From NCBI GenBank assembly GCA_963924555.1, contig OZ004595.1, positions 5,078,599 through 5,142,598 on the forward strand: 64,000 nucleotides of DNA, in the 5' to 3' direction. The notes beneath the pieces were generated by a model. That model saw nothing but the letters and a program-made list of their open reading frames with translations, was not told the origin of the DNA and made no database searches. This stretch comes from Crambe crambe (taxonomy: Eukaryota > Porifera > Demospongiae > Poecilosclerida > Crambeidae). Both the position numbers and the translations under genes were made by a program. This document shows positions 5,576 to 62,449 of the stretch, one piece after another. Positions within the stretch are counted from its first letter, which is position 1. Each line of letters opens with the position of its first letter.

Positions 5576-6900
5576 GATTATAGAGCAATGGAGTCAGGAT
5601 ATCAGAAGCAATTTTCTGCACAGAACTCACTACAGCCACAGCTAGCCTAAAAATGAACGATGAAAGTGTGAAAACAAGATGTCCTTATAATTATGTATGC
5701 TATTATTGATTACTTTGTAGATTTCTAAGAAATCCAGTAGTTTACTCAGTGCACCTAATGCTTGATTTTGTGAGTGCACACTGTAAAAACAGGAGTGTGT
5801 ACTTTATACCACATGAATGTTCCTTGTAAACAGATAGGTATGTAGTTTATACCTTACTGTTTACAGAGAGCATTCCTTAGATATGCAATACACTTATTAT
5901 AAGCAGTTTTTTTGCAGCTAAAGTAAAGCTAAAGTAAAGCTAAACCAAGCAGAACATTTACACTGACATGAACAATTAAAGCAGCTTAGTGGGAGGCAGT
6001 AATGTAGGGATTATTATTGAAGGCAGCATAATTTTAATGTTTATTCACAGAAACTACTATAGGTAAAGTACAGACTTACCTTTTTATTTAGCATAAATCT
6101 TTTTCCTTTCTAATTGTACACTATCTGAAGTTTGAATGTCTCAAATGGACACTAGCTAATGACTGATTAAGTAAGTGTGCATGCATCTACATTCATGTAG
6201 CTATGAGTGTTCATGGAGTTAAGGAGGACAGAAATGCAAGAATCCCTCTGGATCCTCACTTCTTCTATACACAGCTAATACACCACACCATAACTATTGC
6301 AGTTGTACCATAACTATTGCAGTTGTACCATAACTATTGCAGTTGTACCATAACTATTGCAGTTGTACCATAACTATTGTAGTTGTACCATAACTATTGC
6401 AGTTGTACCATAACTATTGCAGTTGTACCATAACTATTGTAGTTGTATACACTTTCTTGGACCGCTGGTCTGGAGATGAAACCTCCTGAAACACTTTCAT
6501 CCTTGTATACTAGTAGCATCATTAATTTTTCTGCTGAAGCCTGAGACCCTGATGAAGTGCCAGATGATCAAGTCCTAATTAATTTCCCACTCACAGTTGG
6601 TTTAATAGAATATTTCAAGTGACACATGCCTAGTCATAGCTAATAATCACAGTTAGTAGTTACATAAACTGTGATCTTAAGCCAAAAGATGGATGTATTG
6701 CTTACGTAAATAGTTCCTATTTATACCGCTTTGCTTCCACTACCTATGACGATAGTAGCTACTACATAGTACGTGCATCCATGAGTTAGTCCAGCATCAC
6801 ATGAAACATAACATCATACATGATATATATGTATGTATGCATGATCACAAACTACACACTAGCAACTTCTGTGAATCCAATGATTAGTACTATTATTAAA
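5576..6900. other. Spacer between C and D
   Basis: No gene is seen. Around 5995-6110 lies a single arm of the foldback family found complete at 22060-22315 and 61620-61890, including its GTAGGGAT box at about 6004 and the T-rich tail. A 20-bp minisatellite sits at 6287-6446. From about 6830 the sequence again resembles the B downstream flank. Confidence 0.5.
6287..6446. repeat. 20-bp minisatellite, eight copies
   Basis: Eight head-to-tail copies of a 20-bp unit with core CCATAACTATTGCAGTTGTA are present. Two copies carry C to T at the same position, and otherwise the copies are identical. The period is exact and there are no spacers, so this is a minisatellite and not a CRISPR array. It lies between genes C and D. 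Confidence 0.95.
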
Positions 6901-8534
6901 CTAATCCTCTCCATTTGATATCAGAGGAGAACATTCATTATGATCATCATATGGAGGAAATGAATCCCCTAAAGTTATTCCTTTCTTCTTTAGCAATTTC
7001 CCTTTAGTCTTTGGGCATCCACAATCAGGTATGCCGATCTTTAAAAGTGACACAACTCGATAAATCAATAAACATAGCCCATACAGAGGAAGTATGGCCA
7101 CTACTGGAGTAAGAACTATCTGTATCACTCTATTATATTCTATAGCAGATCTTGGTGCAATGTACTGTACTTCTATCATTAGTGAACCAGTAACACACAT
7201 AGTGATTGCTATGAGGAATATAATGATGTCAATAGTATTACGTTTCAGTTGCTTGTAGGGCTTAAAAATGGCCACCAGAAGTGATGCAATCATGACCACA
7301 TATGCAGCCAATGAAAGGTATGTGGGATTCTTTGACACTGATAACATTATCAAATTGATGTGTCTGAGAAATAGGTAAAAGCTAGCAAAGTATCTGCAGT
7401 CCCTTGGTGTTTCCTTGTAGCATCCTTGGAACGTGTCCATGAAGGCATGAAGAGTCCGATACTGACATTTAGTGCGATTGAGGCACTTTTGAAAGCAGTG
7501 AGAAGGGTACACACAAAGAGGAACCAGTGGAAGGAAGTTGAAAATAAATAACATCACAATAGCAAGCATAGCATAAGGAGTGTGTTCTTTACTGAAGGGG
7601 ATCAGAGAACCATTGATAAATAAGTGAAATCCACTAGTTTTATCACCATGTTCATTATAGCAGCATCTGTACACTGGCAACCACAGTCTGGAAAAGACTA
7701 TGTAACGGTCATGCAGTCGAACTAGACAATATGTGATATATATCAACACTAAAGGATACACTGCAATCACACAGTCCAGAGAAATGGTTTGAAGGATAGA
7801 CATATCAGGATGCAAGCAAAATAGCTCATATCCACCATGCCAGAAGTCAAGATTCCATACAGCATAAAATGACATTGCTAACTGTGACCAAACATCTCTC
7901 TCTATATTTATAATGGTGTGTATTGATCATGAATCGAAGTATTCCTGGGGCAGCTATCATTTGGCTAACAGCAATATACACGACCATAGGACCAGAATTA
8001 ACTGATACTCTCAGTACGATCATTAGTATGTAAAATGCAGTCAGTGGTAGATATGCTACAGCAATATACTTCAACCAGTTATACTTGTAGTCCTTACACT
8101 CCACACAAGCTAAGTCATACGAGTACACAGATGGAGCATGTTCTGCTATACACTCACCACACATTATACCAGTCCTGTTGAAGGATCCACACACCTCTTC
8201 ATTCAGTTCAGATGTATTTTTGGTGAATATTTGATGGTATTCATGAAAATGACTTGTATAAGAGCACTTATACAAACAATATAGCTCACAAACGTTCCAT
8301 TTAACTTCTCACTATAAGTCATGCAGTAACAAGCCTTCACAGACACTTCAAGAGTTTTACTGTTGCATTGTACAATCCCATCAAGGTCACTCCCACACTC
8401 ACATTTGTCAGATGTCTCATTCAGTATGGTCCATGGAGGACACACATCCTTCAACTTGCTCTCATTTCCACATTTTATAAGTACAAAATTAGCAGTCAGT
8501 GCCAGCAGAATTACGATAAGCGGTTTTCAGTCAT
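6901..8534 (-). pseudogene. Pseudogene D: decayed copy of gene B
   Basis: Family sequence runs from an ATG at 8534 to the terminal ECSPLI motif, but several lesions are visible. One base is missing in the signal peptide near 8524. Two bases (AT) are inserted near 8281. A CTCT insertion near 7898-7902 shifts frame before TM3. About 125 bp, covering the segment before TM5, TM5 itself and part of the following loop, is missing near 7662. The remaining blocks are still highly similar to B and C. D is the tandem-duplicate counterpart of B. Confidence 0.85.
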
Positions 8535-16254: not shown

Positions 16255-16478
16255 TTCTGTGATAAGTAAGGAAACAATCTATATCCAGCCAACAATCCCT
16301 ACATATACATATACGTCAGGTAGCTTCAGATTATAATGCAGTAATGTACGTATATGTAGGGATTGTTGGCTGGATATAGATTGATCCCATTTACAGCCTT
16401 CTTGTTTCCTTACTTTTTTGAGCAGTGGTCATCCCTACATCTTTTTTCATTTCACGAAATGCTTTTTCCCTTATGTAC
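16255..16478. mobile_element. Foldback element (GTAGGGAT family), truncating pseudogene G
   Basis: Inverted arms (about 16275-16315 and 16346-16382) end at the loop in ATCCCTAC / GTAGGGAT. The right tail has a further TCATCCCTACAT box (about 16429-16440), then a 6-bp mini-hairpin CATTTC/GAAATG and a T-rich end like those of the other foldbacks. The tail joins directly to family sequence at about 16477, where the last part of pseudogene G is missing. Confidence 0.7.
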
Positions 16479-16786
16479 TTCTATTAGTGAACCAGTAACA
16501 CATTATAGGAATTGCTATGAAGAATATAATGATGTCAATAGTATTACATTTAAGTTGCTTGTAGGGCTTTAAAATGACCACTAGAACCAATGCAATCAGA
16601 ACCACAGATGCTGCCAATGAAAAGATGTGGGATTCTTTGACACTGAGTACATTATCAGATTGATGCATCTGAGAAATAGGTAAAAGCCAGCAAAATATCT
16701 GCAGTCCCTTGGTGTTTCCTTGTAGCATCCTTGGAGCATGTCCATGAAGTCATAAAGAATCCGATACTGACATTTAATGCAATTGA

Positions 16787-26685: not shown

Positions 26686-26894
26686 TCAGAGAGTGCGGTA
26701 GCACTCTCTAAGTAGGGATGGCAGGTCAAAGTCCATAGGACAGTATAAACTAAAAACTCTTCTTTCTCTTCTACCCTTACTCTACAGGTTCTCAGAAGGC
26801 TACAGTGAATTATTATATCTACAAAGAAGAGAGGAGAATGTTCAAAAGCCAAAAATTCATTCGCCAACATAAGAAAAAAACGAGTTCTAAAATT
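26686..26894 (+). mobile_element. Solo Helitron 5'-end element
   Basis: The sequence begins TCAGAGAGTGCGG within a terminal hairpin (AGAGAGTGC / GCACTCTCT), followed by the AAGTAGGGATGGC box. It is nearly identical to the first two units of the tandem array at 28546-29710. Similarity stops at about 26894, where unrelated sequence encoding a zinc-binding exon begins on the other strand. Confidence 0.8.
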
Positions 26895-27173
26895 ATTGGT
26901 GTTGGTGGCTGTGCATTGTGGAATGATGCAGTGATATATCATTTTGCTCTTCCAACGTGGGACATAATCATCTTTATTTATATTTCTTTTTATATTTCTT
27001 TCACATGGCTTGCAGACACAACTTGCCTCATCCACATCCTCCTCTAACTGAACGAGCTTCTCTTTAATGGAGGTACTCCATGAAGATGGATGGGAATAAT
27101 AGTTGGACTCTTGTTTACAGAGAGAACATGGACCACAAGGATGTTGAGGGTGGCGAGGATGAACTTTAGACAT
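26895..27173 (-). CDS. Exon of an unrecognised Cys-rich (zinc-binding?) protein, partial
   Basis: An ATG at 27173 opens about 93 codons of plausible coding sequence. Pairs of Cys occur as CGPCSLC, CVCKPC and CIIPQC around a Trp/Pro-rich core (HPSSWS, YVPRWKSK), a pattern that suggests metal binding. The open frame continues into the Helitron 5'-end repeat at 26894, so the natural end is unknown; a splice site or a truncation may lie at the junction. I do not recognise the family. It may be a captured gene fragment. Confidence 0.5.
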
Positions 27174-27616
27174 GATGACTAATTTGGGAATAAAATGGTT
27201 TTAATGTTCTCATATTGCTCAATAAATGAAGCATGCATAACTACTTGTATAATACTTTTGCAGTTACAGTTTTTGGATATTTGGTGCATCTATCATTAAG
27301 CTACTTAGTGAAGGGGGTAACTAATACTGTTCTGCTTGCGGAATGATTTGTGCCAAAAGTCTACAGACCTACATGCTTACCTTACAGTTGTGGTTAATTG
27401 CTTCCTACACGGAAATTAATGAATATTTCAAACACGATGGGATAGAACACTTCTTCCTTGTTATTTATGCAGCTGCACTTGTAACTAACCGCTTTTTTGC
27501 GGCCTGTGTACAATTTTATATGTAGCTAACATTTATTGATAAATTCGCGGAATTAAAAAGTGCTTCGAAATAGGAAATGTATTATTCCAATGTCACTTCC
27601 GGTCGGGTGGCTACGC
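27174..27616. other. Non-coding stretch upstream of the zinc-binding exon
   Basis: AT-rich sequence without a recognisable gene or repeat. It ends where the 0.9-kb repeat array begins. Confidence 0.4.
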
Positions 27617-28545
27617 GACTGAACTTACTGGCTATAGTCATCAAAATTCTGCTTTGGCCATCTGTTAGAGCGGCACCTAGAGGCTGATCTTTTGCTATTA
27701 GTTTTGACTAAAGCGCTACTTCATAAATCAGTGATATCGATAGCACTCGGCTAATCTTTCTACGCCATTTTGAAGCGCACGTCAATAGGGGGCGGAGCGT
27801 ATGGGCGGGGCCACGTATAAGTCCACATGTGGCTACAGTGCAGCCTAATCAGTTCAGTTTAGGTCTTCAGTTTAATCGTTTAGCTAGCTATTTATTCTTA
27901 TCTGATGATCTTCCTGACACTCCTTTCTGCATTGCAGTACAGCCTATAGTAGTATTATAGCCAGTACTTGGCTGTAGTGTAGTCAGCTCACTTTACCATG
28001 CCATGCATTTACATTGCTGTTGCTGTAAAGTTTTATATTAAATAATAGACAAAACTTAAATAGCTAAATAAATTCTTCCAGAGACTGTGTATGTGCCTAC
28101 AAAAGAAATGTAGAGCTGGCTTTGTATAGACTATAGTACTGTACTGTGGCCTCATGTCAAATAATTATTAATAATCACTGTATACTCTCAGTTCAAGTGA
28201 CGATCAATACTGCCACCCTCAATTCTTTACTTACACAAACTTACTTTCAACTTCAAGCACTAAAAAAAAAGGATAGAAACAAGTGAGCGCAAAAAATTTC
28301 TTCTAAATAAAAAGTTAAGTAGGGATAGCCTAAAATCTAACTGGGCTGTATAATGTACTGCAGCCTCGTATGAAAACAATCCCTACTACTTTTACAACGG
28401 CCCATAGCTAGCTGTAGGCAGTGGATGTAAATGTAGGGATTGTTTTCATACGAGGCTGTAGTACATTATACAGCCCAGTTAGATTTTAGGCTATCCCTAC
28501 TTAACTTTTTATTTAGAAGAAATTTTTTGCGCTCACTTGTAATAA
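27617..28545. repeat. First unit of the 0.9-kb tandem repeat
   Basis: The unit begins at CTTACTGGCTATAGTCATCA and ends with the hairpin at 28279-28540. It lacks the (AAT)n/ATCGACG leader of the later units and is more diverged from them. It is separated from the other units by the Helitron 5'-end array at 28546-29710. Confidence 0.85.
28279..28540. mobile_element. Foldback hairpin 1, GTAGGGAT family
   Basis: Arms of about 108 bp are nearly perfect complements around a loop of about 45 bases. Outer ends read ACAAGTGAGCG / CGCTCACTTGT. Each arm has AAGTAGGGATAGCC on the outer side and CAATCCCTAC at the loop, giving four boxes in alternating orientation. The right end abuts AATAA and then the TC of the next Helitron 5'-end unit. 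Confidence 0.9.
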
Positions 28546-29710
28546 TCAGAGAGTGCGGTAGCACTCTCTAAGTAGGGATGGCAGGTCAAAGTCCATAGGA
28601 CAGTATAAACAAAAAACTCTTCTTTCTCTTCTACCCTTACTCTACAGGTTCTCAGAAGGCTACAGTGAATTATTATATCTACAAAGAAGAGAGGAGAATG
28701 TTCAAAAGCCAAAAATTCATTCGCCAACATAAGAAAAAAACGAGTTCTAAAATTGACTTTTCGTTCTTTTTCTTTATCAGAGAGTGCGGTAGCACTCTCT
28801 AAGTAGGGATGGCAGGTCAAAGTCCATAGGACAGTATAAACTAAAAACTCTTCTTTCTCTTCTACCCTTACTCTACAGGTTCTCAGAAGGCTACAGTGAA
28901 TTATTATATCTACAAAGAAGAGAGGAGAATGTTCAAAAGCCAAAAATTCATTCGCCAACATAAGAAAAAAACGAGTTCTAAAATTGACTTTTCGTTCTTT
29001 TTCTTTATAATAATCAGAGAGTGCGCTAGCACTCTCTAAGTAGGGATGGCGGGTCAAAGGTCATAAGACTGTATAAACTAAAAACTCTTCTTTCTCTTCT
29101 ACCCTTGCTCTACAGGTTCTCAGAAGGCTACAGTGAGATACTACTTCTACAAAGAAGAGAGGAGAGTGTTCAAAAACCAAAAATTCATTCGCTAACATAA
29201 GAAAAAAACGAGTTCTAAAATTGACTTTTGTTCATTTTCTTTATAATAATCAGAGAGTGCGCTAGCACTCTCTAAGTAGGGATGGCGGGTCAAAGGTCAT
29301 AAGACTGTATAAACTAAAAACTCTTCTTTCTCTTCTACCCTTGCTCTACAGGTTCTCAGAAGGCTACAGTGAGATACTACTTCTACAAAGAAGAGAGGAG
29401 AGTGTTCAAAAACCAAAAATTCATTCGCTAACATAAGAAAAAAACGAGTTCTAAAATTGACTTTTGTTCATTTTCTTTATCAGAGAGTGCGCTAGCACTC
29501 TCTAAGTAGGGATGGCGGGTCAAAGGTCATAAGACTGTATAAACTAAAAACTCTTCTTTCTCTTCTACCCTTGCTCTACAGGTTCTCAGAAGGCTACAGT
29601 GAGATACTACTTCTACAAAGAAGAGAGGAGAGTGTTCAAAAACCAAAAATTCATTCGCTAACATAAGAAAAAAACGAGTTCTAAAATTGACTTTTGTTCT
29701 GTTTCTTTAT
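28546..29710 (+). mobile_element. Tandem array of five Helitron 5'-end units
   Basis: Unit starts (TC) are at 28546, 28777, 29014, 29250 and 29480; units are 230-237 bp and end in TTCTTTAT, with or without an extra AATAA. Each begins with a hairpin formed by AGAGAGTGC and GCACTCTCT, then TAAGTAGGGATGGC. Units 1-2 share GTGCGGTAGCAC and other differences, while units 3-5 share GTGCGCTAGCAC, so there are two subtypes. The repeated open frames in the array follow from the repeat and are not a gene. Confidence 0.88.
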
Positions 29711-30335
29711 AATAATAATAATAATAATAATAATAAGGATAATAAATATAAGATCGACGCCCCGACTTACTGGCTATAGTCATCAAAATTCTGCTTTGGC
29801 CATCTGTTAGAGCGGCACCTAGAGGCTGATCTTTTGCTCTTAGTTTTGACTAAGGCTCTACTTCACTATTCGATAGCACTCGGCACTAGCTAATCTTTCT
29901 ACGCCATTTTGAAGCGCACGTCGTTAGGGGGCGGGGCTTATGGGCGGAGCCACGTAAGCTTAGCTAGGTCTTCAGTACAGTTTAATCGTTTATTCTTATC
30001 TGATGATGTTTAATACAGTCACTCCTTGCTGAACTTATAGTAGTGTTATAGCCAGTACTTGGCTGTAGTGTAGTCAGCTCACTTCACCATGCCATGCACA
30101 TGTCATTTAGCTACATTGCTGTTGCTGTAAAGTAAATAATAGACAAAACTTAAATAGCTAAACAAATTCTTCAACCAGAGACTGTGTATGTACCTACAAA
30201 ATAAAGAGATACTCATGTCAAATTAATAATCACTGCATGCATACTCTCAGTTGAAGTGACAGTCAATACTGCTACTCAATTCTTTACATACACAAACTTA
30301 CATTCAACTTCAAGCACTATGAAAAAAGGATAGAA

Positions 30336-30600
30336 ACAAGTAAGCGCAAAAAATTTCTTCTAAATAAAAAGGTTAAGTAGGGATAGCTTAAAATCTAGCT
30401 GGGCTATAATATAATGTACTGCAGCCTCGTATGAAAATAATCCCTACTTTTACAACTGCCATAGCTAGTATAGGTAGTGGATGTAAATGTAGGGATTGTT
30501 TTCATACGAGGCTGCAGTACATTATATTATAGCCCAGCTAGATTTTAAGCTATCCCTACTTAACCTTTTTATTTAGAAGAAATTTTTTGCGCTTACTTGT
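30336..30600. mobile_element. Foldback hairpin 2 in the 0.9-kb array
   Basis: Ends are ACAAGTAAGCGC and its complement. The outer box is AAGTAGGGATAGC. The loop boxes are AATCCCTAC and GTAGGGATT. Arms are almost exactly complementary. Confidence 0.9.
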
Positions 30601-33000: not shown

Positions 33001-33266
33001 ACAAGTAAGCACAAAAAATTTCTTCTAAATAAAAAGGTTAAGTAGGGATAGCTTAAAATCTAGCTGGGCTATAATATAATGTACTGCAGCCTTGTATGAA
33101 AATAATCCCTACTTTTACAACTGCCATAGCTAGCTATAGGTAGTGGATATAAATGTAGGGATTATTTTCATACAAGGCTGCAGTACATTATATTATAGCC
33201 CAGCTAGATTTTAAGCTATCCCTACTTAACCTTTTTATTTAGAAGAAATTTTTTGTGCTTACTTGT
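33001..33266. mobile_element. Foldback hairpin 5 in the 0.9-kb array
   Basis: The layout matches hairpin 3 and it shares the CCTTGTATG/CATACAAGG pair. Confidence 0.9.
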
Positions 33267-43562: not shown

Positions 43563-43586
43563 TCAGAGAGCGCGGTAGCGCTCTCT

Positions 43587-43599
43587 ATGTAGGGATGAC
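43587..43599 (+). promoter_or_regulatory. Left asymmetrical terminal inverted repeat (GTAGGGAT box)
   Basis: ATGTAGGGATGAC directly follows the 5' terminal hairpin. It pairs with GTCATCCCTACAT at 53622-53634. It is probably a Rep recognition or processing site (inference from Helitron2 structure). Confidence 0.6.
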
Positions 43600-44480
43600 C
43601 TATGACCCTCCATAGGACTAATACAAAATGAAGTTGGATTTTCTCAGAAAACAGTAAGTTGTAGCTGCTATAACTGCTCACCCTGTCTCTTATGCACATT
43701 CTTATCATGCAGGAGAATTTTGGAGGCTGAAATACTCAACACGGAGAAACAGTAGTAGCGCACTTTTTCATGATTTCTTATTCTTCAGGTTCTTAATCAT
43801 CATCATATTCTTCATAATGGCACGATCTGGAGTAAAATTGGGCCGCGCTTTGGCCATCTTCTATATATGAATTTGTACCATTTTACTCGGACCAGGTCCA
43901 CATCCCATCAGTTTAGCCTCTAGTTCACTCAGAAAAAAAAGCCGCTTCCTTAGTACAGTTATACAGCTAATCAGCCATTAAACTTAAATAGATTGCGCAT
44001 GCGTACATACAGTTACCATGACTAAAATCTACCGTCCGGATCGATACCGTCTGAGCTAAACTAGCTACTTGCTATTCTTCAAAGTCCTCGAGATAAGTTA
44101 TTGTTATTCTTTTATTAGCTATTGTTATAGCTATTTTTGCTAGCTAACTAACTAGCTAGCTAAATACCTAGGTAAATCTTACCAAAATTCAAGTTGGTTA
44201 AAAGTCAACTTTATACTGAGCTAGCCAACTACTTAGTGTTAACCAGCTACCTTTGTAGCTCTTATCACTTAGCTGAATAGTTAGCTACAGCAAATTGCTA
44301 GCTCTGTAAACTTGTATTTAATGCTAGCTGTAGTGTAATACTCAGCTACAGTATACAGCATATTATTATTATTAATTATTATTTTATTGGCATATTAATT
44401 TTATCTACTACTCTATATATATTGGATAAATAACATAATAGAAAAAAAAACCTATACATCTGTCTACACTAATAATTACT
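43600..44480 (+). other. 5' untranslated leader of the Helitron
   Basis: No ORF is convincing. The first 130 bases form one arm of an inverted repeat with 52238-52360. The remainder is AT-rich, with GCTAGCTA repeats (44140-44170). The promoter of the Rep gene presumably lies here, but no motif stands out. Confidence 0.45.
43603..43733 (+). repeat. Sub-terminal inverted repeat, left arm
   Basis: About 125 bases from GACCCTCCATAGGACTAATA onwards are complementary, with indels, to 52238-52360. The similarity does not include the terminal hairpin or the GTAGGGAT box. Confidence 0.8.
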
Positions 44481-46889
44481 ATGGCTTCAGCAAAAAAAAA
44501 GAGGGCACAGCGAAAAAATAGGTATGAAATGAATAAAGCTGCAGAAAAGTCCACAATGAAACAGTACCATGATAAACACAGGGATACCATGAAATCAAAA
44601 TCTAAACACAATTATGAAAAGAACAAAGATGCCATAAAATCTAAGTCTAAACAAAATTATGAAAAGAACAAAGATGCTGCAAAATCTAGATCTAAGCAAA
44701 ATTATGAAAAAAACAAAGACGCCATGAAATCTAAATTTAAACTACATTATGAAAAGAACAAAGATGCTAGGAAATCTGAATTCAACAAATATTATGAAAA
44801 GAACAAAGATGACATCAAATTAAAATCTAAACAGTATTATGAAAAGAATCAGGATGCCCTCAAATATAAAATCAAAGAATACAACCAAAAGCATGAAATT
44901 TCCATTAAATCTAAACTGAATGCTCATTATCAAAAAAATAAAGACCGTCTCTGCTCTCTGAAGAGAAAAAGATACCAACAAAACAGTGACAAAATCAAAG
45001 CAGCTAATCATGCCTACTATAGATCCAACTCTGAATCAAGGAAAGTTGCTGCTCAAGCTGGATATTCAAAGAAGGCAAAAGCTGTTATTAAAAGAGCAAG
45101 GCAATACTATGCTAAGAACAGGGGCTACATTTGTGCTAATGAGAGACGGAAGTATGAATTAGCAGAACCAAAGCCACTGACTAAACTCTTTTATGTGCAC
45201 AAGATAAAGAAAAATCTGATGCGCAATACTGGATTGTTGTCTAACCTAATAGACACTTTTGAAAAGGAGCATACCTGTGCATGCAATAAGATTTCAAAAG
45301 GCAATCGCAAGACTGCAATTTCTAATCTGGCAGCGCAGAGAGTAGTATGCAAAGCTATACAGATACGCAAGCAATATGTTGGTGCCTTGCTCAAAGCTGT
45401 CAGATATATAAATGGACTTAAGATCAAAGGAAGGGCAGACTTTGGTGAGGGTTTGCACTCGGCTCACAGTGAGCCCTACTTCTATCATTCTGCATACCTC
45501 TTTGCAAAAAGACCTGATATTTTGACTATAGACCAAAGTGGGATATGTAGGCAAGAAGAGAATGTTTCTGAGAGTAAGGTTAGTAGTGATATCCCACATG
45601 CACATACATGGAAATGTAGTTCAAAGTGCAAACCTCTCACTGAGTCAGAAGTGAGCAGTATACTTGATCTTAAGTCAGAGTTTGAGAACCCGATTCATGA
45701 ACTGTCACGAGTTTTGGACAATATTGATGGTAGTTGTCCAAACTACCATTATAGTAAGGCTGTAAGTGGTCAATCTAGAGAACTTAAAGGGCACAGCTTG
45801 CTTTGTTACATGGGTACAGAATGCAAAAGCAGACTTAGGATTTTGAGATCAGCTGCCACCCATTATCCTATTTTGCATTCTTTAATACGTGCTGTGTATG
45901 TAGCTATTAATAGCCTGCGCAGCGTATCTAAGCTTGATGAAGCACTCAAGTCTGGTGACTTTGCCTTTCTAATGAACAATTTAGATGGTGATTTTGACTC
46001 TCTTTTGAGTAATGACGTGGAAACAACTCATGAGCTTACTGAAACAGCACACTCAGTCCTGAGAAGGAGAGATCTAGAATTGCATCTTCAGATCACTCAT
46101 GCTGGGCTAATAGCTGAGTATCAAAAGGCAGTTGAGGACTATCCTCAAAATCCATGCTGTAGTTGTCAGCAGCTACATCAGCGCAGAAATGTAACCAAAA
46201 TTAATTTCTCAAATAGATTGGGAGACACTGTGTGGCCTGCGCTGAAACAGTTCATGCTAAGAGACAACAAACAAGCTGCAGATGAGACACATTTCATGTG
46301 CAACTACTGTAAATCTAGTATGAAACATGATAAAATGCCACCACGCTGTGTGCTCAATGGTTTAGAGGTGATTCCCATTCCAGAAGAGCTGAAAAATTTG
46401 GATTGCTTGAGTAAGCAGTTCATTCAACGTGCCAAAAGTTATCAAACTGTTGTTAGGTTAGGCACTTACACAAATAAAGTACCCACATACAACTCATTAC
46501 AGGCATGCAAGGGTACAATGTTCTTCCTTCCTTTGCCTCTGGGAAAGACCCTAGAGACTTTAGATCAGGTTAACCATCCAGTTACATCTCTAGCCAGTCC
46601 TGAACTCTATATCATAGTCAATGGTAAGCCTACCACCAACAAAATGGTGTGGCGCAGCCTTGTGAATGTCAAAGATATCAAGGGAGCTGTAGAGAAGCTC
46701 AGACAAATCAACTGGCTTTACAAAGACGTAGATGACAGTTCTCTAGACACAACACTCAAGGAAGTCGTAGAAGTAGTAAGTAACGCTTCTAGCACTATGC
46801 TTGAGAAAGCTTCAGATAATGACATAATTATTATTATCTGGATTGCAATGTTACACGATAAGAAATTTGAACAACAAGCTGAATACTGA
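44481..46889 (+). CDS. Helitron Rep/helicase polyprotein, N-terminal part (802 aa)
   Basis: An ATG at 44481 opens a frame to a TGA at 46887. Residues about 35-185 contain ten degenerate 15-residue repeats of the type YEKNKDAxKSKSKQN, strongly basic, perhaps DNA- or RNA-binding. Several Cys pairs follow (HTCAC, WKCSSKC, CCSC, FMCNYCKS). The segment from about residue 600 matches the DUF6570-like region found before Helitron_like_N in animal Helitrons, ending with VWRSLVNVKDIKGAVEKL. The Helitron_like_N, Rep and helicase domains lie in the next frame, so this is the first half of a normally single polyprotein. Confidence 0.85.
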   Translation: MASAKKKRAQRKNRYEMNKAAEKSTMKQYHDKHRDTMKSKSKHNYEKNKDAIKSKSKQNYEKNKDAAKSRSKQNYEKNKDAMKSKFKLHYEKNKDARKSEFNKYYEKNKDDIKLKSKQYYEKNQDALKYKIKEYNQKHEISIKSKLNAHYQKNKDRLCSLKRKRYQQNSDKIKAANHAYYRSNSESRKVAAQAGYSKKAKAVIKRARQYYAKNRGYICANERRKYELAEPKPLTKLFYVHKIKKNLMRNTGLLSNLIDTFEKEHTCACNKISKGNRKTAISNLAAQRVVCKAIQIRKQYVGALLKAVRYINGLKIKGRADFGEGLHSAHSEPYFYHSAYLFAKRPDILTIDQSGICRQEENVSESKVSSDIPHAHTWKCSSKCKPLTESEVSSILDLKSEFENPIHELSRVLDNIDGSCPNYHYSKAVSGQSRELKGHSLLCYMGTECKSRLRILRSAATHYPILHSLIRAVYVAINSLRSVSKLDEALKSGDFAFLMNNLDGDFDSLLSNDVETTHELTETAHSVLRRRDLELHLQITHAGLIAEYQKAVEDYPQNPCCSCQQLHQRRNVTKINFSNRLGDTVWPALKQFMLRDNKQAADETHFMCNYCKSSMKHDKMPPRCVLNGLEVIPIPEELKNLDCLSKQFIQRAKSYQTVVRLGTYTNKVPTYNSLQACKGTMFFLPLPLGKTLETLDQVNHPVTSLASPELYIIVNGKPTTNKMVWRSLVNVKDIKGAVEKLRQINWLYKDVDDSSLDTTLKEVVEVVSNASSTMLEKASDNDIIIIIWIAMLHDKKFEQQAEY

Positions 46890-49800
46890 TTCTGACATAG
46901 AACAGTATAAGCTTTTGCACGTTGAGGAGGAACCTTTAGACAATCGTCAAAAGTTCCTTGATGTTATGTGTTTTCCAACACTTTTCCCAGATGGAAAGTT
47001 TGGAAAGTATCACCCTCGCAGTGTGAAAATTTCCCACAGCGAATATATAAAGTCCCGCCTCTTTAATAAAGACCCTCGATTCAGAAAGGAGCCTCGCTAC
47101 ATATTTTACTTGCTTTGGCAGAAAGAAATGAGGGAAATTTCAGCAGGTGTTTACAACATACTGAAATCTTCAAAATCACACTCAATGACCGTTGGCAACT
47201 TATTGGACAAGGTGGGAGCAAATGACGAACACCTGGAATCCAATTTATCCACTATGCTTCAGTCAGTCCGTGGCACAAAGCAGTATTGGTATGTGCGGCA
47301 GAGTGATCTGAGGTGTATGGTACGCGAATACGGTTCACCAACTCTCTTCCTCACATTCAGCTGTGCCGAGTATGAATCTTATGACATTGTAAGCTATCTC
47401 AGGTCTTTGAATGATGTGTCTGATAGTTACAATATAGGAAAGCTATGCACAGAGGACCCTGTTTCTGTCTCTAGGCAGTTTTCGCACAAATTTCATGCTT
47501 TCTTCCAAAAAGTGTTGATCAAAGGTGAGGTTTTGGGCTGTGTAGACCATTACTTTTGGAAAAAAGAGTACCAAGCACGTGGTGCTCCCCATTTCCACGT
47601 ACTTTTGTGGATACGTGATGCACCTGTGATTGGTAAGGACGATCCAGACAAAATCCTGGCCTGGATTCAGGAAAGAATTACTTGCCACATCCCAGAAAAG
47701 GAAAGTAATCCTGAACTGAATTCACTGGTCACGAGATACCAAATGCACAAGTGCAGTGCTTATTGCAGACGACGAGTCAAGCGTGGTTCTATCTATACAA
47801 CCACTTGCAAATTCAATTTTCCTCGTGAGCCCTGTGAAAATGCAGTGCTACATTGTGTGGAAGAAAAGCTCAAAAAGCGCCAAAAAATTTATCAGCTCCC
47901 ACGGACAGAGTCCGAGACAAGGGTGAATGATTATAATCCCCTTCTTTTGTTGCTGTGGAAGGCTAACATTGACATACAGTTTGTGGCCGAGTCCTCCTTG
48001 GCTCTCAGCTATTATGTCACTGCCTATGTTACCAAAGCTGAAAGAAGCACCTTGCAGGAAGTATGGAATGAGGTAAGTGATAACAAGAGTGTCTACAGTC
48101 GTTTGTGGAGCTTTGGTGTGAGAGCCCTCCGCTCTCGAGAATGTGGCTTATATGAAGCCAGCGATTTATTAATAGGTGATCACCTATGTGAAAAATCGAC
48201 CACTGTGAAGTGGATCTGTGTCAAGATGCCTCACAAGAGAAGTCGCAGGTTGAAAAACCATAGTGTGTTGCAGGAAATTGCAGACGAGAATCCAGAGAGT
48301 GAGGACATCTTTGAGGATGACCTCTTCAATACCCACTATCCCAAAAGACCAGCTGATCTGGAGGACGTCTGCCTGCATGACTTTGTAGCCAATTATGATT
48401 GGTACAGCAAGGATCGTAATGGCGATAGGATTTACAGGAGGCTGACAAAACCTAGACTTGTGAATCACAAGCTCTATGATCCAAACAAAGAAGAGGAGAG
48501 GGAAGACTTCTATTATTCCCTCGTACTTCTTTTCGTTCCCTTTAGAAATGAGGCTTCCTTGCTCCAGGAGAATGAAAAACCAGAGGAAGCATTCAACCGC
48601 CTCTTACCTTCCAATGAGAGCTGCTCAGAGTATCACTCTAGATTGCAGAAGATATTGAAAGCACGGGAGGCTCTGAAGAAAATCAATGATGCAAGAGAGG
48701 CAAATAATGATAATGAGGGAACCAACAAGGAAGATCATGACGAACCAGAGTTGCTAGGTCAGGCAAAGTCAGCAATGCTGGATGCATTGCACATGAACGC
48801 CAAAAAGCCTGATAAACTCACCTTACAAGAAAGAGTCATGATGTTGAATTCTGATCAGAGGAGGATCTTTGAACGTGTAAAGGACCACCTCCTTCATCAA
48901 GTACAGCATGAAGCTGACGAATGTAATTGTGAATTTGAACCACTTTGCATGTTCATAAGTGGTGTCGGAGGAACTGGCAAATCGTTTCTCATTGAAGCTC
49001 TGAAACAGCTCATAGATGGCATTTGGACGTCTGATGATTTGACGTGTGCAGTTGCTGCACCTACTGGTTTGGCTGCCTTCAATGTTGGTGGAGTAACCAT
49101 CCATAGGCTCTTTCAATTGCCTATAGAACATGAAGGCAAAGAGGCTGGTTACTGGTCTCTTTCAAAAGCCTCACAGAAAATAATGAAGACCGTGCTTCGT
49201 GGTCTCAAAATGATTATTGTAGATGAAGTGTCCATGGTTTCCAGTCTCAACCTTGCATACATGCACCTGAGACTTGAGGAACTATTTGGTGGACACAGTT
49301 GGTTCGGTGGGAAAAATGTTATATTTGTAGGTGATTTGCTTCAGTTGCAGCCTGTTAACGGTAGTCCTGTGTTTGAAATGATATCCAAAAAATCACTATG
49401 TCACAAACTTGGCTGTACAACATCAGTGAACATATGGAAAAGTTCCATCAAATACGATGAGCTCACCATCAATGAGAGACAAAAGAAAGACAGGGAGTTC
49501 TCACAAATGCTGGACAGTGTGAGGCGAGGTTCTCCAACTGAGGAAACACTATGCACACTCCAAGAACGTGTTACTGACCGTTCTGTACCTGAACTCTTTC
49601 GTGATCTTAAGAACTCAGACATGAATCCTGTCTGTCTTTTCCCCACCAGAGAGCAGTGCGACCAAGTCAACAATGAAATGCTTGGAAGCCTGGACTCAGA
49701 AATATATAAAATATCGTGCACTGACGAAGTTGATGAAACAAAGAGCAAAAGCAAGTGGAACAAGAAAGCAGCTGAGAAGCTAGAGAAACTAAACAAAGAC

Positions 49801-51639
49801 TGCAATAACACTGCAGGATTAGAAGCAGTGCTGAAACTAGCTGTTGGTGCACGTGTCATGCTGAGACGTAACATTGATATAGAAACAGGTTTGGTCAATG
49901 GAGCCATTGGCACAGTTATAGCAATCTCAGCAAGATGTATCTCTGTTCAATTTGACCACATCAATGATCCATGTGATATTGAAAAGGTAAAAACAAAGTT
50001 CATGGTGATGAAAAATTACTTTGTCTACCGTGAGCAATTTCCCCTTATCCTTGCCTATGCAGTTACAATTCACAAATGCCAAGGTTTATCCTTGGATTGT
50101 GCTATCATAGACTTATCAAGCAAGGTATTTGCTGATGGCATGGCTTACGTAGCACTCTCAAGGGTGAAATCGCTTCTTGGGTTGCACCTAATTTCTCTGG
50201 ACAAAGACTCAATCAGGGTCAATAGGAAAAGCATCATGGAAATCAATAGACTGAGGGAAATGTATAGAAAAGACCTTCCTCTGTATGATGTGCCAGCACC
50301 AAGAACTCGCTCCAAGCGCAAGCTTACTGGTACTTCTGAACAAATTGAGCCCAATGCTAAGAAGAGAAGGGTTGACAACCCTATCAAAGCCAATCCTATC
50401 AACTCTCAGCTGGAACAAAGGGTATGGCCTTTCAAATTTCATTCAGTCGATGAGCAATGGCAGCGCAATGCTTGTGCCTCCCTTGGTCTCCAGTTTGAGA
50501 GAAGCAATGGAGCGAGTCCAGGTAGTGGCAGTTTGCCTCTCACTTGTCCAGACAAGAATAAAATTAAGACAATAGTTGGAGACGGAAATTGCATGTTTCG
50601 ATCTCTGTCTTATATTATCACGGGTTCACAAGCCCAACATGGGAGGCTACGTACAAAAATTATTCAGCACATGCATGATATCGCTCCCCTTATTATAGGA
50701 CATATCAGGGGCCGTTCTCAAGATAGATACACCACTGTTGGGGAATACATACAGGGCAGTGGAATGGACAAAACTGGTGTGTGGGGCACTGATATAGAAT
50801 TACTAACCCTTGCCCACTTACTAAAAACATGCATATTCTCTTATGACACACAAAGGGACACCTGGGATAGGTTCAAACCTAGCAGCATAGACAAGACAGT
50901 GAAAACAGACTTAGCATCAAGTTCCCTGTATCTAAGACACCCACAAGCTCATTATGAGGTTGTTCTTGCTGTTGAACCTTTGATAAATTCAAACCCACCT
51001 CAATCCAATGAACCAGATGAAAAGAAAGCAGACCATAGCAGTGGTAACAGCATTCCCACAAGCAATCACATAGATGGAAACATAATATTACAGGAAGAGT
51101 GGCCAGAGTGTAGATTCCATTCAGTGGACGAAGAGTGGCAAAAAGTTGCATGTGGTGTACTAAATATTCCATATCATTGCAAAAATGGATTAAGTCGGGG
51201 TGGTGCCAATGTAATTCTGACACGTCCAGATAAGATGCAAAAAATTATAGCAGATGGCAATTGTCTGTTTCGGTGTCTTTCCCACATAGTAACGGGAACT
51301 CAAAGACATCATGTAGCTGTACGTTTGGCCATAATAGAACACTTGCAAAGAATTCCTGGGTTCTTGGGCACCTATGGCAGTGTTAATGACTACTTGAATA
51401 GAACCAATATGGACAAAATAAACACTTGGGGTACTGATATCGAAATGTTTGCTTTTGCACATTTGCTAAATACTCCAATATATTCATTTGTTAAAAATTT
51501 AAATGATTGGCATAAATATCCCCCCTCCCGGATAAATCTAACCATGTATGATGATGTCACATGTGATGATGTCACACAAAAGGCAATGTACATAAGATTT
51601 CATTCTGAACACTTTGAAGTCGTATGCTCAGTCTTATAA
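46828..51639 (+). CDS. Helitron Rep/helicase/OTU polyprotein, C-terminal part (about 1600 aa)
   Basis: The frame is open from 46828, with no ATG near the start, and overlaps the upstream frame by 62 bases. Numbered from the TTG at 46843: Helitron_like_N with FPTLFPDGKFG near residue 43; HUH motif HFH at 250-252 in RGAPHFHVLLW; catalytic Tyr candidates at 390/391 and 395 in YYVTAYVTK; Pif1-like helicase with GVGGTGKS (707-714), DEVSM (794), GDLLQLQPV and HKCQG (1077). Two OTU-type cysteine protease domains follow: Asp1247, Cys1250, His1370 and Asp1471, Cys1474, His1590. Functions are rolling-circle nicking and unwinding; the OTU role is unknown. All catalytic residues I can identify are present. 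Confidence 0.9.
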   Translation, partial: LLLSGLQCYTIRNLNNKLNTDSDIEQYKLLHVEEEPLDNRQKFLDVMCFPTLFPDGKFGKYHPRSVKISHSEYIKSRLFNKDPRFRKEPRYIFYLLWQKEMREISAGVYNILKSSKSHSMTVGNLLDKVGANDEHLESNLSTMLQSVRGTKQYWYVRQSDLRCMVREYGSPTLFLTFSCAEYESYDIVSYLRSLNDVSDSYNIGKLCTEDPVSVSRQFSHKFHAFFQKVLIKGEVLGCVDHYFWKKEYQARGAPHFHVLLWIRDAPVIGKDDPDKILAWIQERITCHIPEKESNPELNSLVTRYQMHKCSAYCRRRVKRGSIYTTTCKFNFPREPCENAVLHCVEEKLKKRQKIYQLPRTESETRVNDYNPLLLLLWKANIDIQFVAESSLALSYYVTAYVTKAERSTLQEVWNEVSDNKSVYSRLWSFGVRALRSRECGLYEASDLLIGDHLCEKSTTVKWICVKMPHKRSRRLKNHSVLQEIADENPESEDIFEDDLFNTHYPKRPADLEDVCLHDFVANYDWYSKDRNGDRIYRRLTKPRLVNHKLYDPNKEEEREDFYYSLVLLFVPFRNEASLLQENEKPEEAFNRLLPSNESCSEYHSRLQKILKAREALKKINDAREANNDNEGTNKEDHDEPELLGQAKSAMLDALHMNAKKPDKLTLQERVMMLNSDQRRIFERVKDHLLHQVQHEADECNCEFEPLCMFISGVGGTGKSFLIEALKQLIDGIWTSDDLTCAVAAPTGLAAFNVGGVTIHRLFQLPIEHEGKEAGYWSLSKASQKIMKTVLRGLKMIIVDEVSMVSSLNLAYMHLRLEELFGGHSWFGGKNVIFVGDLLQLQPVNGSPVFEMISKKSLCHKLGCTTSVNIWKSSIKYDELTINERQKKDREFSQMLDSVRRGSPTEETLCTLQERVTDRSVPELFRDLKNSDMNPVCLFPTREQCDQVNNEMLGSLDSEIYKISCTDEVDETKSKSKWNKKAAEKLEKLNKDCNNTAGLEAVLKLAVGARVMLRRNIDIETGLVNGAIGTVIAISARCISVQFDHINDPCDIEKVKTKFMVMKNYFVYREQFPLILAYAVTIHKCQGLSLDCAIIDLSSKVFADGMAYVALSRVKSLLGLHLISLDKDSIRVNRKSIMEINRLREMYRKDLPLYDVPAPRTRSKRKLTGTSEQIEPNAKKRRVDNPIKANPINSQLEQRVWPFKFHSVDEQWQRNACASLGLQFERSNGASPGSGSLPLTCPDKNKIKTIVGDGNCMFRSLSYIITGSQAQHGRLRTKIIQHMHDIAPLIIGHIRGRSQDRYTTVGEYIQGSGMDKTGVWGTDIELLTLAHLLKTCIFSYDTQRDTWDRFKPSSIDKTVKTDLASSSLYLRHPQAHYEVVLAVEPLINSNPPQSNEPDEKKADHSSGNSIPTSNHIDGNIILQEEWPECRFHSVDEEWQKVACGVLNIPYHCKNGLSRGGANVILTRPDKMQKIIADGNCLFRCLSHIVTGTQRHHVAVRLAIIEHLQRIPGFLGTYGSVNDYLNRTNMDKINTWGTDIEMFAFAHLLNTPIYSFVKNLNDWHKYPPSRINLTMYDDVTCDDVTQKAMYIRFHSEHFEVVCSVL

Positions 51640-52899
51640 TTACTTGAATACCTTCACTATGATGATTGTGTCAGTGCTACTTATTGCACATCACAAAGTA
51701 TACTTGGCAATTATGCCAGTTGTTATACAGCATCATCATGTATAGCCTGCTGTGTATAAGCACCAGGAGCAACACCACTATGGCACTTCCCAGCTTATTT
51801 ATATGATTGAAGGAAGAAGTACTGTAGAGAAGGATAATGATTACAACAGTGCAGGGGGGTGCCACTTGAAACGTTGGGACACAGCTGGAAGTAAAAAGGT
51901 GGTGTTGCATAAAGAATGGCATCATTATAGTGTACTGGCGCACATTAACACATAGGCCAGATGTCATTCACTTCCAGTTTAACTGTATATGTATGGATAT
52001 GGATATATGTAAAAGTCCCAACGAGCACTGATCCTTTCTCTGTATAGGCAACAGTACTTAACACAGACTCACAGGCTAAAAAACTTGGTGCCACTGTATG
52101 GTAACATACAGTACAAGTTAAAATCAAACCATTCGTGCAAAATTTATTTCGCATTTAACGTTTGTGCTCATGCACATCAAGTAACTCGGGTTTACAGCTA
52201 TAGCTAATGCATTTTTACTGTTCTTCAGTGTTTAATCTTTCAGGCTCCAAAATTATATTTTATAAGAATACGGGGTAAGCAGTCATAGCAGCTACATCTT
52301 ACTGTTTCCTGAGAAAATCCAACTACTTCATTTTATAGCTATTAGTCCTATGGAGGGTCATGCATGTCAAGGTTTGCAGCTGGCTATTCATGCAAAAATG
52401 CAAGGCATTATTATGTCAGATTCAGTTATTCTATCAAAAATGAAATTTAATTGTGCGAACATTTTGATTTTAACTTGTACATATGAATTAAAGCAGAGGG
52501 CAGAGAACTTGACTGCTCTGACAGTGATTAGAAGAGTACTGAGACAATTTTATAAACCTGAATGTGTTCTATGTACTTGGTTGCACCATGCTGAAGAGCT
52601 CCAAATAGAGCGAAACAGTCGAATTGCCACTTTCCTCTTTAACAGAGGGGCAATCAATCACACCATGCTTATAATGCATGCTGTGTGGTCGATTGTCCAT
52701 GGTTACCAAGTACAAAATTTATATTTCATACCCCACATGAGCTGCATGTGGGGAAGGAGCAATTTGTCATAATAATAGCTATGTCTCCTCAAAGTTTCAT
52801 GATCTTATAAATGTAGCTAGTCCACCCTTTGACATGTAGCTACCAAGGACTTAAGCAGGGGAGCTAATGCTAAAAATTTAATTTAAAAAAAGAGAGAAA
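51640..52899 (+). other. Helitron 3' non-coding region
   Basis: No convincing gene is seen; the ORF at 52350-52772 overlaps inverted repeats and shows no domain. The region holds the right arm of the sub-terminal inverted repeat (52238-52360), nested inside another inverted repeat (52107-52146 with 52441-52480), and hairpins near 52565-52725 (TGTACTTGGT with ACCAAGTACA) and 52734-52754 (CCCCACATGAGCTGCATGTG). Confidence 0.55.
52238..52360 (-). repeat. Sub-terminal inverted repeat, right arm
   Basis: Complement of 43603-43733; ends in GGAGGGTCA. It might be a nested 5'-end derivative in reverse orientation that lost its terminal hairpin, or a true structural repeat of the element. Confidence 0.75.
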
Positions 52900-53673
52900 A
52901 CAAGTAAGGGAAAAAACATTTTAAAAAAATGAAAGGTGATGTAGGGATGACAAAAAACAGTGTACAAAAAAATAAAGGAACAAGGGAAGAAATTGTGGAA
53001 AGAAAAAGGCTTGACTTATTATCATCCCTACATCAAGCCTATGAATGGAATTATTGTAGCTAGCTAGCTAGCTACTTTGACTATTCAAGCTATAATTATA
53101 CTCTTCCCCTACCTTGTACTCTTCCTCCACCTTCTCTTCCTGTACAATAATGTCCTATCTATACTCTGATTACATGGAGTATATGTACAGTCATCACACC
53201 TTCCCATCAATTCATTCAATTTTTTCCACTAAATTGATTTCATTACCAAAAAGGCTGCATAACTATGGACAATTGCATAATTCATGATTCATTTAACTCA
53301 CTGGTACAATTGAATGTATACACACTCATTTCACTGCATGTACTTGGTGCTCACAATTCAACCTCTGATAAAGGTACTGAAAGGACAGTCTCAACAACCT
53401 GAAACGTGGAGTGACTGCTAATAGATTTTCACCTCTGAAAGAGGAGAGCCTCTATTAGGAGGTTTCAATATTATAGTCAGATGCCAGTAGCTATTATGGT
53501 AGATGTCAATTAGCTACAATAATTCCATTCATAGGCTTGATGTAGGGATGATAATAAGTCAAGCCTTTTTCTTTCCACAATTTCTTCCCTTGTTCCTTTA
53601 TTTTTTTGTACACTGTTTTTTGTCATCCCTACATCACCTTTCATTTTTTTTAAATGTTTTTTCCCTTACTTGT
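52900..53673. mobile_element. Foldback with 161-bp arms at the Helitron 3' end
   Basis: Arms 52900-53060 and 53513-53673 are nearly perfect complements around a 450-bp loop. Each arm carries GATGTAGGGATGACA outside and ATCATCCCTACATCA inside, so four boxes alternate in orientation. Outer ends are ACAAGTAAGGG / CCCTTACTTGT, as in the array hairpins. The loop has no gene; a Tigger-like scrap lies near 53430. Confidence 0.9.
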
Positions 53674-61468: not shown

Positions 61469-62449
61469 GCCTGAGTCTAATTTTATTGCTGGATATCATA
61501 AGCAGTTCTGTAGCTATTTAACTCACTATAGCTGCTGCACTTATACTCAAAAAAAAACACCTGAAACTGAAAGTGTTTGTTTAACTCTACGTACAACTTA
61601 ACGCTTCAAATAATACCTTGTATTCCTTTACCTATAGCAGTTTCTGTGAACAAACATCAATATTATGCTGCCTTCAATAATAATCACTGCCTCCCAGGAA
61701 CACCAAGCTGCTCATGTCAGTGTAAGTGTTCTGCTTGGTTTAGGCAGTGATGTAGGGATTATTATTGAAGGCAGCATAATTTTGATGTTTGTTCACAGAA
61801 ACTGCTATAGGTAAAAGTACAGACTAACCCTACATGGCCTTTTTATTTAGCATAAATTTTTTTCCCCTTCACTTTTTTGTTTACTTTTTATATGACCTCC
61901 ACTTACTGTATATCATCAACTCATGTTTTAGTTAATAATGACCTTTAGTTTACTTACTGTATTGTTTTAGCTGATAGCTCACTTAGCCTCGTCACTGTAC
62001 TGTACTGGGCTTTAGAGGCAGACAAAAGAGCCGCGCCAAAATTTTACTCAAAATTTTGCCGCGCCAAAATTTTACTGAATCAGCACTGCAGCAGACATTG
62101 TTGAGTGCAGAAATCTCCACTGGACTCTAAAGCTATCGAAAGAGTCTATAAAGTGAATGCAGAAGCCTCTTCTTGTTCTTCACAACATGAATCTACTGCT
62201 ATAAGGTGCCAATCATAAGTTACTTTGCTATAAGGTGCCATTTCAGATACACACACACATAATATTATATATACACACAGACACAAAGCCCGATCACTTT
62301 ACCCCTTGCTGCACATGCGTGTGCAGGGTAATTAGGAGGATCAAAATGCCTTGAAAATTATTCCTGGGATTCCAATCACACACTGTACAATGGATGAAGT
62401 GTGTATTGCACATAAATTGTCCCAATACGCACTAAATCAAAACAGTGAT
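61469..62449. other. Upstream flank of I, duplicate of the H flank
   Basis: No gene is seen. It contains the foldback at 61620-61890 and a local duplication of GCCGCGCCAAAATTTTACT (62028-62078). Confidence 0.6.
61620..61890. mobile_element. Foldback element, GTAGGGAT family
   Basis: Near-identical to 22060-22315. Its tail CTTTTTATTTAGCATAAATT is closer to the family consensus. Confidence 0.75.

Follow-up and report, generated by a model that had tools for sequence, protein, structure and literature searches.

A 64,000-nucleotide stretch of the genome of the sponge Crambe crambe (GenBank assembly GCA_963924555.1, contig OZ004595.1, positions 5,078,599 to 5,142,598 of the forward strand), hereafter the window, contains an autonomous Helitron and several non-autonomous relatives, together with long palindromic foldbacks that are almost certainly the 3′ termini of these elements. 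The autonomous element is a member of the Helitron superfamily, with the HUH motif, two tyrosines and PIF1-type helicase of that superfamily and no target duplication. Its features are given below in window coordinates.

43563..53672, plus strand: autonomous Helitron, 5′-TC...CTTG-3′, between A and T, starting with TCAGAGAG
43565..43586, plus strand: 5′ terminal hairpin, AGAGAGCGC-GGTA-GCGCTCTCT
43587..43599, plus strand: 5′ box ATGTAGGGATGAC, the 5′ asymmetrical terminal inverted repeat (ATIR), after the 5′ hairpin
44481..46889, plus strand: open reading frame (ORF) with a DUF6570 domain (Pfam)
46843..51639, plus strand: RepHel ORF with HUH motif, two tyrosines, PIF1 helicase and OTU
52901..53062, plus strand: left arm of the 3′ foldback, 162 bp, two boxes, 99.4% complementary to the right arm
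53511..53672, plus strand: right arm of the 3′ foldback
53622..53634, minus strand: 3′ box (3′ ATIR) GTCATCCCTACAT, the inverted 5′ box
53642..53656, plus strand: small 3′ hairpin CATTT-TTTTT-AAATG, lying past the box and before the 3′ end

An initial annotation had placed a box behind the 5′ hairpin and the same 13-mer inverted near the 3′ end, and both were found there (43587-43599 and 53622-53634), the 3′ box lying 38 bases (39 with the target T) before the end of the element, which was set at 53672. The RepHel ORF matched the Pfam domains Helitron_like_N, PIF1 and OTU; in its Rep part, HFH is located at residue 250 and the catalytic tyrosines are Y391 and Y395. It also matched Helraiser (PDB 7lcc, E 4e-38), with the helicase part as the best stretch, while no endonuclease family was among the Pfam matches of the autonomous Helitron at E 0.001. 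Behind the helicase, OTU-like stretches occur at RepHel residues 1246-1363 and 1467-1549 (Pfam and PDB matches). The 5′ subterminal region of the Helitron (43602-43754) recurs inverted at 52216-52361, upstream of the 3′ foldback (76% over 160 columns); this recurrence stops near the box and is perhaps a decayed inverted 5′ end. The predicted fold of the small 3′ hairpin in the autonomous copy reached −2.1 kcal/mol, and 2 of 200 shuffles were as good.

The other foldbacks and non-autonomous elements of the window, which are referred to below by subfamily (AA, AT and ATAGC), are the following.

16280..16482, plus strand: truncated AT-type foldback, three boxes
26686..28539, plus strand: AA-type non-autonomous element, 1854 bp, with foldback 28280-28539 at its 3′ end
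28546..34740, plus strand: array read as five nested AA-type elements
30337..30599, plus strand: 3′ foldback of the innermost nested element, four boxes
31258..31518, plus strand: 3′ foldback, four boxes
32114..32377, plus strand: 3′ foldback, four boxes
33002..33265, plus strand: 3′ foldback, four boxes
33831..33925, plus strand: remnant of an AA-type left arm inside an ATAGC subfamily element
34298..34740, plus strand: ATAGC-type 3′ foldback without the last CTTG, its loop oriented as in 3 of 9 scored copies

Six foldbacks are intact (28280-28539, 30337-30599, 31258-31518, 32114-32377, 33002-33265 and 52901-53672), and all six carry four exact boxes in alternating orientation, the arrangement first noticed in the initial annotation. 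Foldback 34298-34740 retains both arms with two exact and two one-mismatch boxes, two others are truncated (16280-16482 and 33831-33925) and two are decayed (near 19113 and 58573). The earlier figure of at least ten box-containing foldbacks holds with remnants counted and drops to six intact and one near-complete copy without them. As a DNA single strand, foldback 30337-30599 was predicted to fold at −135.3 kcal/mol (z −33).

Searches of the whole assembly (143,139,886 bases in 119 contigs) returned 1729 matches to the 5′-end pattern against 0 for its reversed control, 1604 exact matches to the 3′-end pattern (3′ ends or left arms; control 1) and 4517 to GTAGGGATGAC (control 88); the 5′-end pattern had no match in viral contigs. 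The analysis of element ends is based on the first 100 of the 1729 five-prime ends, all from contig C1, of which 93 were analysed (30 plus 63 in 40 regions) and 7 beyond 5.80 Mb were left out. Eight loci from the GTAGGGATGAC search were added, giving 68 segments plus the window, and a fuzzy search of this set yielded 106 five-prime ends (the 93, 7 in the window and 6 degenerate ones, two of these doubtful) and 41 foldbacks with both ends recognisable. All nine pairs of the 5′ hairpin were standard in 99 of the 106 five-prime ends, and one pair varied among T-A (91), C-G (6) and A-T (5).

Subfamily inner sequence was located on exactly one side in 40 of the 41 foldbacks, by an inner-flank pattern that these loci themselves had supplied; the flank of the remaining foldback is related. 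The base preceding the 5′ end was A in 105 of 106 cases, and the base after the outer end of the foldback, whose tail reads CTTACTTGT or CTCACTTGT, was T in 39 of 40. The inner side of the foldback also reads CTTG and then T (40/40), which shared descent may explain. Bracket matching, done on one strand and blind to box type, paired 61 of the 106 five-prime ends with a downstream foldback (31 AA-AA, 30 AT-AT, 0 mixed), although the few pairs more than 3 kb apart may be wrong partners. Within AA, the 5′ subtype predicted the foldback subtype (7, 3, 0, 21; Fisher p 4.6e-5), and because the rows are related by descent, both this count and the 61/61 agreement express linkage rather than independent events. 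Empty sites were found inside sister elements, for AA in AT, AT in AA and AA in AA, each with a junction without duplication, the AT-in-AA site also being without four bases at the site. These empty sites bracket a 5′ end and a foldback together, as one unit. The initial proposal that the foldbacks are duplicated Helitron 3′ ends is well borne out by the one-sided inner sequence and the outer T, and we regard it as practically certain that they are the 3′ terminus of Helitrons, an inverted duplication of the 3′ end, rather than separate elements. The elements insert between A and T and leave no target duplication: of 29 simple elements, 13, 5, 1, 0, 3, 0 and 0 had direct repeats of 2, 3, 4, 5, 6, 7 and 8 bases, respectively, at their ends, and the three 6-base cases are TAA/TTA repeats. 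Target duplications, which the initial annotation had named as speaking against its proposal, were thus absent, with 5-, 7- or 8-base repeats in 0 of 29.

At L090 (C3:5348790-5348910), two AT-type foldbacks stand tail to tail, separated by a short TTA tract, and the first is without its last CTTG; a similar pair, 8 bases apart, was seen near C1:3448461. New copies may favour positions next to 3′ ends that are already in place.

Autonomous and short non-autonomous copies have a common layout: A|TC, the 5′ hairpin, the box, the body and then an inverted repeat bounded on either side by the 3′ terminus and closing with CTTG|T. The two ends of an element carry the same type of box. The earlier expectation that box variants co-vary between ends was upheld by type, in all 61 matched pairs, and failed as full identity in most AA copies, in which the 5′ box AAGTAGGGATGGC and the 3′ box AAGTAGGGATAGC are one base apart. 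At least 31 genome matches to the RepHel protein were obtained (a lower bound, with 29 of 267 candidates scored), many of them 98-100% identical with open frames, one 73% and five 59-60% identical. Lineage A, the window type, and the AT non-autonomous copies carry ATGTAGGGATGAC at both ends, while lineage B, a second autonomous lineage with the RepHel that is 59-60% identical, carries a third box type, ATGTAGGGATGGC, at both ends. B-type ends make up 3 of the 106 five-prime ends; two with ATGTAGGGATGGC lie 3574 and 3651 bases upstream of a RepHel match on C1, and four foldbacks carry this box (L080, L081, L086 and L087). Both ends of lineage B were seen in two copies and the 3′ end alone in two, and a fifth copy, on C5, has the left junction of a B-like foldback at 7322656, which is 2.6 kb downstream from its RepHel match. 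As A and B each have their own box at both ends, box type follows the Rep lineage in both cases in which it could be determined, and the box is a likely candidate for the Rep recognition site. The Rep-compatible subfamilies proposed in the initial annotation are thus putative groups. Two AT-type 5′ ends, spaced 243 bases apart, lie 3.3-3.6 kb upstream of the 73% RepHel copy on C11 (L088, C11:5909950-5910550). This copy may serve the AT non-autonomous family as its partner, and its 3′ end was not found in two stretches (L085 and L089).

The array at 28.5-34.7 kb looks like five elements nested by self-insertion. From the outermost inward, its 5′ ends and foldback ends pair as 28546-34740, 28777-33265, 29014-32377, 29250-31518 and 29480-30599. 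The 5′-end arrays had been described initially as units, a description that gives way to nested self-insertions, as the five 5′ ends balance five foldbacks. Insertions often target TAA at A|T, and the elements have a TAA tract behind their 5′ unit, so that copies land inside copies; the subtype agreement within AA also supports nesting. At C3:4820630-4825430, six AT-type inner junctions are arranged as mirror images over 5 kb, three on the plus strand followed by three on the minus strand, which could be an inverted nest or a larger palindrome.

Two other accounts of the foldbacks and of the array have to be considered here. The foldbacks might be independent foldback DNA transposons with terminal inverted repeats (TIRs), that is, miniature inverted-repeat transposable elements (MITEs), sharing the box by chance or through adjacent insertion, and their perfect TIRs and the position of several of them in microsatellites would suit this account. 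It was rejected as exceedingly improbable, in view of the Helitron-family inner sequence on one side in 40 of 41 copies, the lack of 5-, 7- and 8-base direct repeats in 29 elements, whose 6-base cases are TAA/TTA repeats, and the empty sites that bracket a 5′ end and a foldback as a single unit. For the array, ordinary tandem duplication of 5′ and 3′ units could be suggested by the units being about 81-97% alike and head to tail, and by the pair 28777-33265, which joins a 5′ subtype more often linked to ATAGC foldbacks to an AAGCT foldback. However, the balance of five 5′ ends with five foldbacks is better accounted for by nesting, the subtypes of bracket pairs agree overall, mixed nests occur elsewhere, such as AT(AA AA)AT at C1:4753500, and the junctions lie at A|T within the element's own TAA tract. 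Bracket pairing and subtype agreement therefore disfavour tandem duplication in the window, which we consider quite improbable, and the array is best read as nested self-insertions.

The arms of a foldback change together. Among 22 AA foldbacks, the average difference was 0.4% from arm to arm against 7.3% between elements, changes from the majority occupied 99 cells on both arms against 8 on one, and for 43 of 44 arms no other arm was closer than the partner. Indels of up to 14 bases occurred on both arms, and 21 of the 22 copies had no one-arm gap. The contrast was weaker in 12 AT foldbacks (1.55% from arm to arm versus 3.25% between elements), in which 16 of 24 arms were nearest to their partner. 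Terminal segments were identical in 19 of 25 arm pairs, compared with a mean of 2.7 after shuffling; these pairs represent 50 of 100 listed 3′ ends, the other 50 being excluded for want of an exact-pattern partner, so that the set favours intact pairs, and it partly overlaps the 22 AA and 12 AT foldbacks.

Of the foldback regions measuring 180 bp or more, 83 in all, 70 could be scored for loop orientation, the remaining 13 having other loop types or damaged loops. The loop occurred in both orientations in three of four subfamilies, with 22 versus 11 copies in AT, 6 versus 3 in ATAGC and 2 versus 2 in lineage B (L080 and L081 scored one each way, with L086 and L087 added by visual reading). L080 and L081, whose 102-base arms are identical, differ by an exact inversion of the 29-base core. 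The lack of a match between their outer flanks marks them as separate insertions, and on the same grounds segmental duplication was rejected as the origin of this flipped pair. On a tree of 27 AT foldbacks built with the loop left out, parsimony required 5 orientation changes, at least two of them forced by supported branches. The initial annotation had noted neither the terminal position of the foldback in the element nor the concerted arms and the flipping loop.

Given these observations, we consider it probable that this is a Helitron2-like element in which the long palindrome at the 3′ end goes through a hairpin stage, with one arm copied from the other. In such a process, Rep/helicase would nick at A|TC and peel off one strand, and the box together with the 3′ structure would mark the stop at CTTG|T. 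On the displaced strand, the arms would anneal to form a hairpin at least about 100 bp long, presenting the box as double strand, and the terminal 3′-OH at CTTG, paired in the hairpin, could prime synthesis. Copying through the hairpin would make one arm from the other and occasionally leave the loop inverted; arm copying and loop inversion are the expected trace of such hairpin-templated synthesis. Whether the arms were copied in the transposition intermediate and not in the chromosome is close to an even question, and we put it slightly below that. The palindrome could plausibly take part in termination, by analogy with Helraiser, whose 3′ hairpin is described as acting as a terminator (PMC4778049). 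More speculatively, and with rather low probability, the 3′ end might function as a parvovirus-like telomere, in which the paired 3′-OH primes the second strand, the arms are rewritten and the loop flips, so that rolling-circle replication would be mixed with rolling-hairpin replication. If this were true, the conserved inner CTTG-T would preserve a second cleavage site, facing inward, at which inverted dimers could be resolved.

Complementarity of the arms could also be kept without any copying, by selection on pairing through compensatory point changes. Near-perfect pairing in most copies would fit such selection, and the 5′ hairpin does show compensatory states (T-A, C-G and A-T), but the two arms share indels of up to 14 bases, which independent point changes could not reach. 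Because of these common indels, compensatory selection alone is disfavoured and seems improbable, and homogenisation of the arms by copying rather than by point-wise selection is very probable. A stronger competitor accepts the foldback as the 3′ terminus and regards homogenisation and loop inversion as chromosomal events, through strand switching in replication or gene conversion, leaving the palindrome without a special role in transposition. In bacteria, strand switching perfects imperfect palindromes and inverts their centre, which counts in favour of a chromosomal origin, as do the occasional and clustered occurrence of flips and the few one-arm changes on long end branches. These changes numbered 8 in AA, where the upper bound was 278 (about 67 on removal of two rows whose bodies are unlike), and 17 in AT, where it was 96; the bounds include pre-insertion time, and with sparse sampling the terminal branch lengths are themselves upper bounds. 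On the other hand, diverged AT copies have retained one-arm changes (5/110 and 7/106 positions), the two B copies of opposite loop orientation inserted separately and have different outer flanks, and the palindrome is present alike in the AA, AT, ATAGC and B subfamilies and in the autonomous A element. We hold the chromosomal explanation to be a serious possibility, though one that falls somewhat short of an even chance.

Several results run counter to the foldback as a 3′ terminus that passes through a hairpin. Unmatched 5′ ends amount to 45 of 106, some belonging to long elements, some lying at sequence ends and some unexplained, and the 61 matched pairs, sharing descent, are not independent. 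Self-comparison downstream of 24 of the 45 unmatched ends detected no further foldback with the family 3′ end; the inverted-repeat matches that it did return were a repeat-rich region (C1:5052700), two AT-type foldbacks face to face (C1:5210700), inverted 5′ ends (C1:5317600) and short repeats without a family end (C1:1116435 and C1:1386187). The 12 AT foldbacks have more one-arm cells (20) than two-arm cells (11), most of the former supplied by two diverged copies. In the AA subfamily, the loop was inverted in 0 copies versus 26, and AT orientation was more clustered on the tree than shuffled labels. The small 3′ hairpin of the one AA end that was folded had no stable predicted fold (−0.2 kcal/mol, with 138 of 200 shuffles as good), and no inverted dimers sharing one foldback, which would tie loop flipping to the intermediate, were seen among the first 100 junctions in each of two lists. 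As AA loops were never inverted and AT flips are clustered, loop flipping is repeated but occasional, not routine as in adeno-associated virus (AAV).

The box described in the initial annotation is real and enriched, and it marks both ends of one Helitron group. In the 64-kb window, GTAGGGAT occurred 42 times against 1.45 expected, a number reached in 0 of 100 shuffles, TCAGAGAG 13 times against 2.56 expected and CTTACTTGT 10 times against 1.07 expected. Foldbacks or their remnants contain 30 of the 42 boxes and 5′ ends contain 7, and the other 5 lie elsewhere (6004, 19248, 22196, 58681 and 61752), two of them in decayed foldback-like sequence. The boxes at 6004, 22196 and 61752 adjoin a duplicated host gene family. 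The span given in the initial annotation begins at box 6004, which stands beside the host gene family and not in the Helitron.

Long open frames on the minus strand form a repeated family in the window (1366-2790, 3833-5575, 6901-7875, 10369-11196, 20165-21910 and 59720-61468), encoding up to 582 aa, with DNA about 77-92% alike, and three of the frames have one of the three boxes named above about 280-430 bases upstream. A Pfam scan of five of the six frames gave no match, nor did a PDB comparison of one. Window 13409-15602 is GC-rich (46-51% in 2-kb bins at 12-16 kb, versus 35-43% in most of the window) and has a weak reverse transcriptase match, under the curated cut-off of that family.

These findings bear on how Helitron transfer ends and how a single-stranded intermediate becomes double-stranded. 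The genome offers 1729 5′ ends and 1604 3′ ends or left arms with natural variants of box, arm, loop and orientation, and two Rep lineages in one genome make box specificity, termination and hairpin priming testable by swaps. For annotation, such foldbacks could be called MITEs and the nested copies satellites.

Among known groups, canonical Helitrons (Helitron1) share the 5′-TC start and the A|T target with the element described here, but not its 3′ end, which is CTTG rather than CTRR and is accompanied by a 13-bp box at both ends, whereas Helitron1 is without terminal inverted repeats. Helraiser/Helibat is alike in its 5′-TC, A|T target and RepHel with HUH and two tyrosines, according to the description in PMC4778049. 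The asymmetric terminal inverted repeats of 8-15 bp that distinguish Helitron2 are present, with 13 bp in the autonomous copy. Their placement differs, since the Helitron2 5′ repeat is given as 0-2 bp from the end, within the 5′ hairpin, and the 3′ repeat as about 20-30 (Bao and Jurka 2013, PMC3627910), while here the 5′ box is 24 bases from the end, outside the hairpin, and the 3′ box 38 bases. As portrayed in the same source, Helitron2 resembles this element in its short asymmetric inverted repeats, 5′ hairpin and RepHel, and its 3′ repeat directly precedes a 3′ hairpin, which here is predicted in the autonomous copy but not as a stable fold in the AA end; its Chlamydomonas family has a TTTT|T/C target instead of A|T (PMC3627910). 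The duplication of the whole 3′ end as a long palindrome is a difference on our side. FoHeli1 and FoHeli2 of Fusarium oxysporum, as described in PMC5148889, share the TCAG start and have hairpins at both ends, and their 12 bp ATIR, 38-51 bp from the 3′ end, follows the same plan. Self-insertion giving several 5′ termini has been proposed for them, but they end in ATTTT and that description gives no long 3′ foldback (PMC5148889). The C-terminal endonuclease and TT target of Helentrons were not found here, with no endonuclease match at E 0.001 and an A|T target, although Helentrons are said to carry OTU protease ORFs (PMC4067079) and OTU is present here too. The proto-Helentron of Phytophthora infestans likewise has RepHel without endonuclease and A-T insertion without duplication, but its ends are 5′-TT and 3′-CTAG and its account mentions no long palindrome (PMC4067079). 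Drosophila Foldback elements have long palindromic termini too, and unlike the present foldbacks they are presented as a separate class II family, in a source that assigns no palindromic modules to the Helitron family AtREP21 (PMC2955051). Here, the self-contained structure and target duplication of Foldback/TIR transposons were absent. No Helitron with a 3′ foldback was seen among the papers that searches of the open literature listed, subscription papers and Repbase entries lying outside these searches. By the published descriptions, as far as they extend, the 3′ foldback sets this element apart from Helitron2, the proto-Helentron and FoHeli1/2.

The Rep protein of AAV belongs to the HUH class, as does Rep here. 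The terminal palindrome in two loop orientations that characterises rolling-hairpin replicons was observed in three of four subfamilies. AAV and parvovirus inverted terminal repeats are comparable in their long terminal palindrome with two loop orientations, and the flip and flop orientations of AAV are reported to arise via hairpin priming and Rep nicking (PMC11575299). AAV differs, by the same account, in being a virus with palindromes at both ends (PMC11575299); here one end only has a palindrome, flipping is occasional and priming is putative, and no homology is claimed. The combination of arms evolving in concert and a flipping loop at a terminal hairpin is known from parvovirus ends and is, as far as we found, new for Helitrons.

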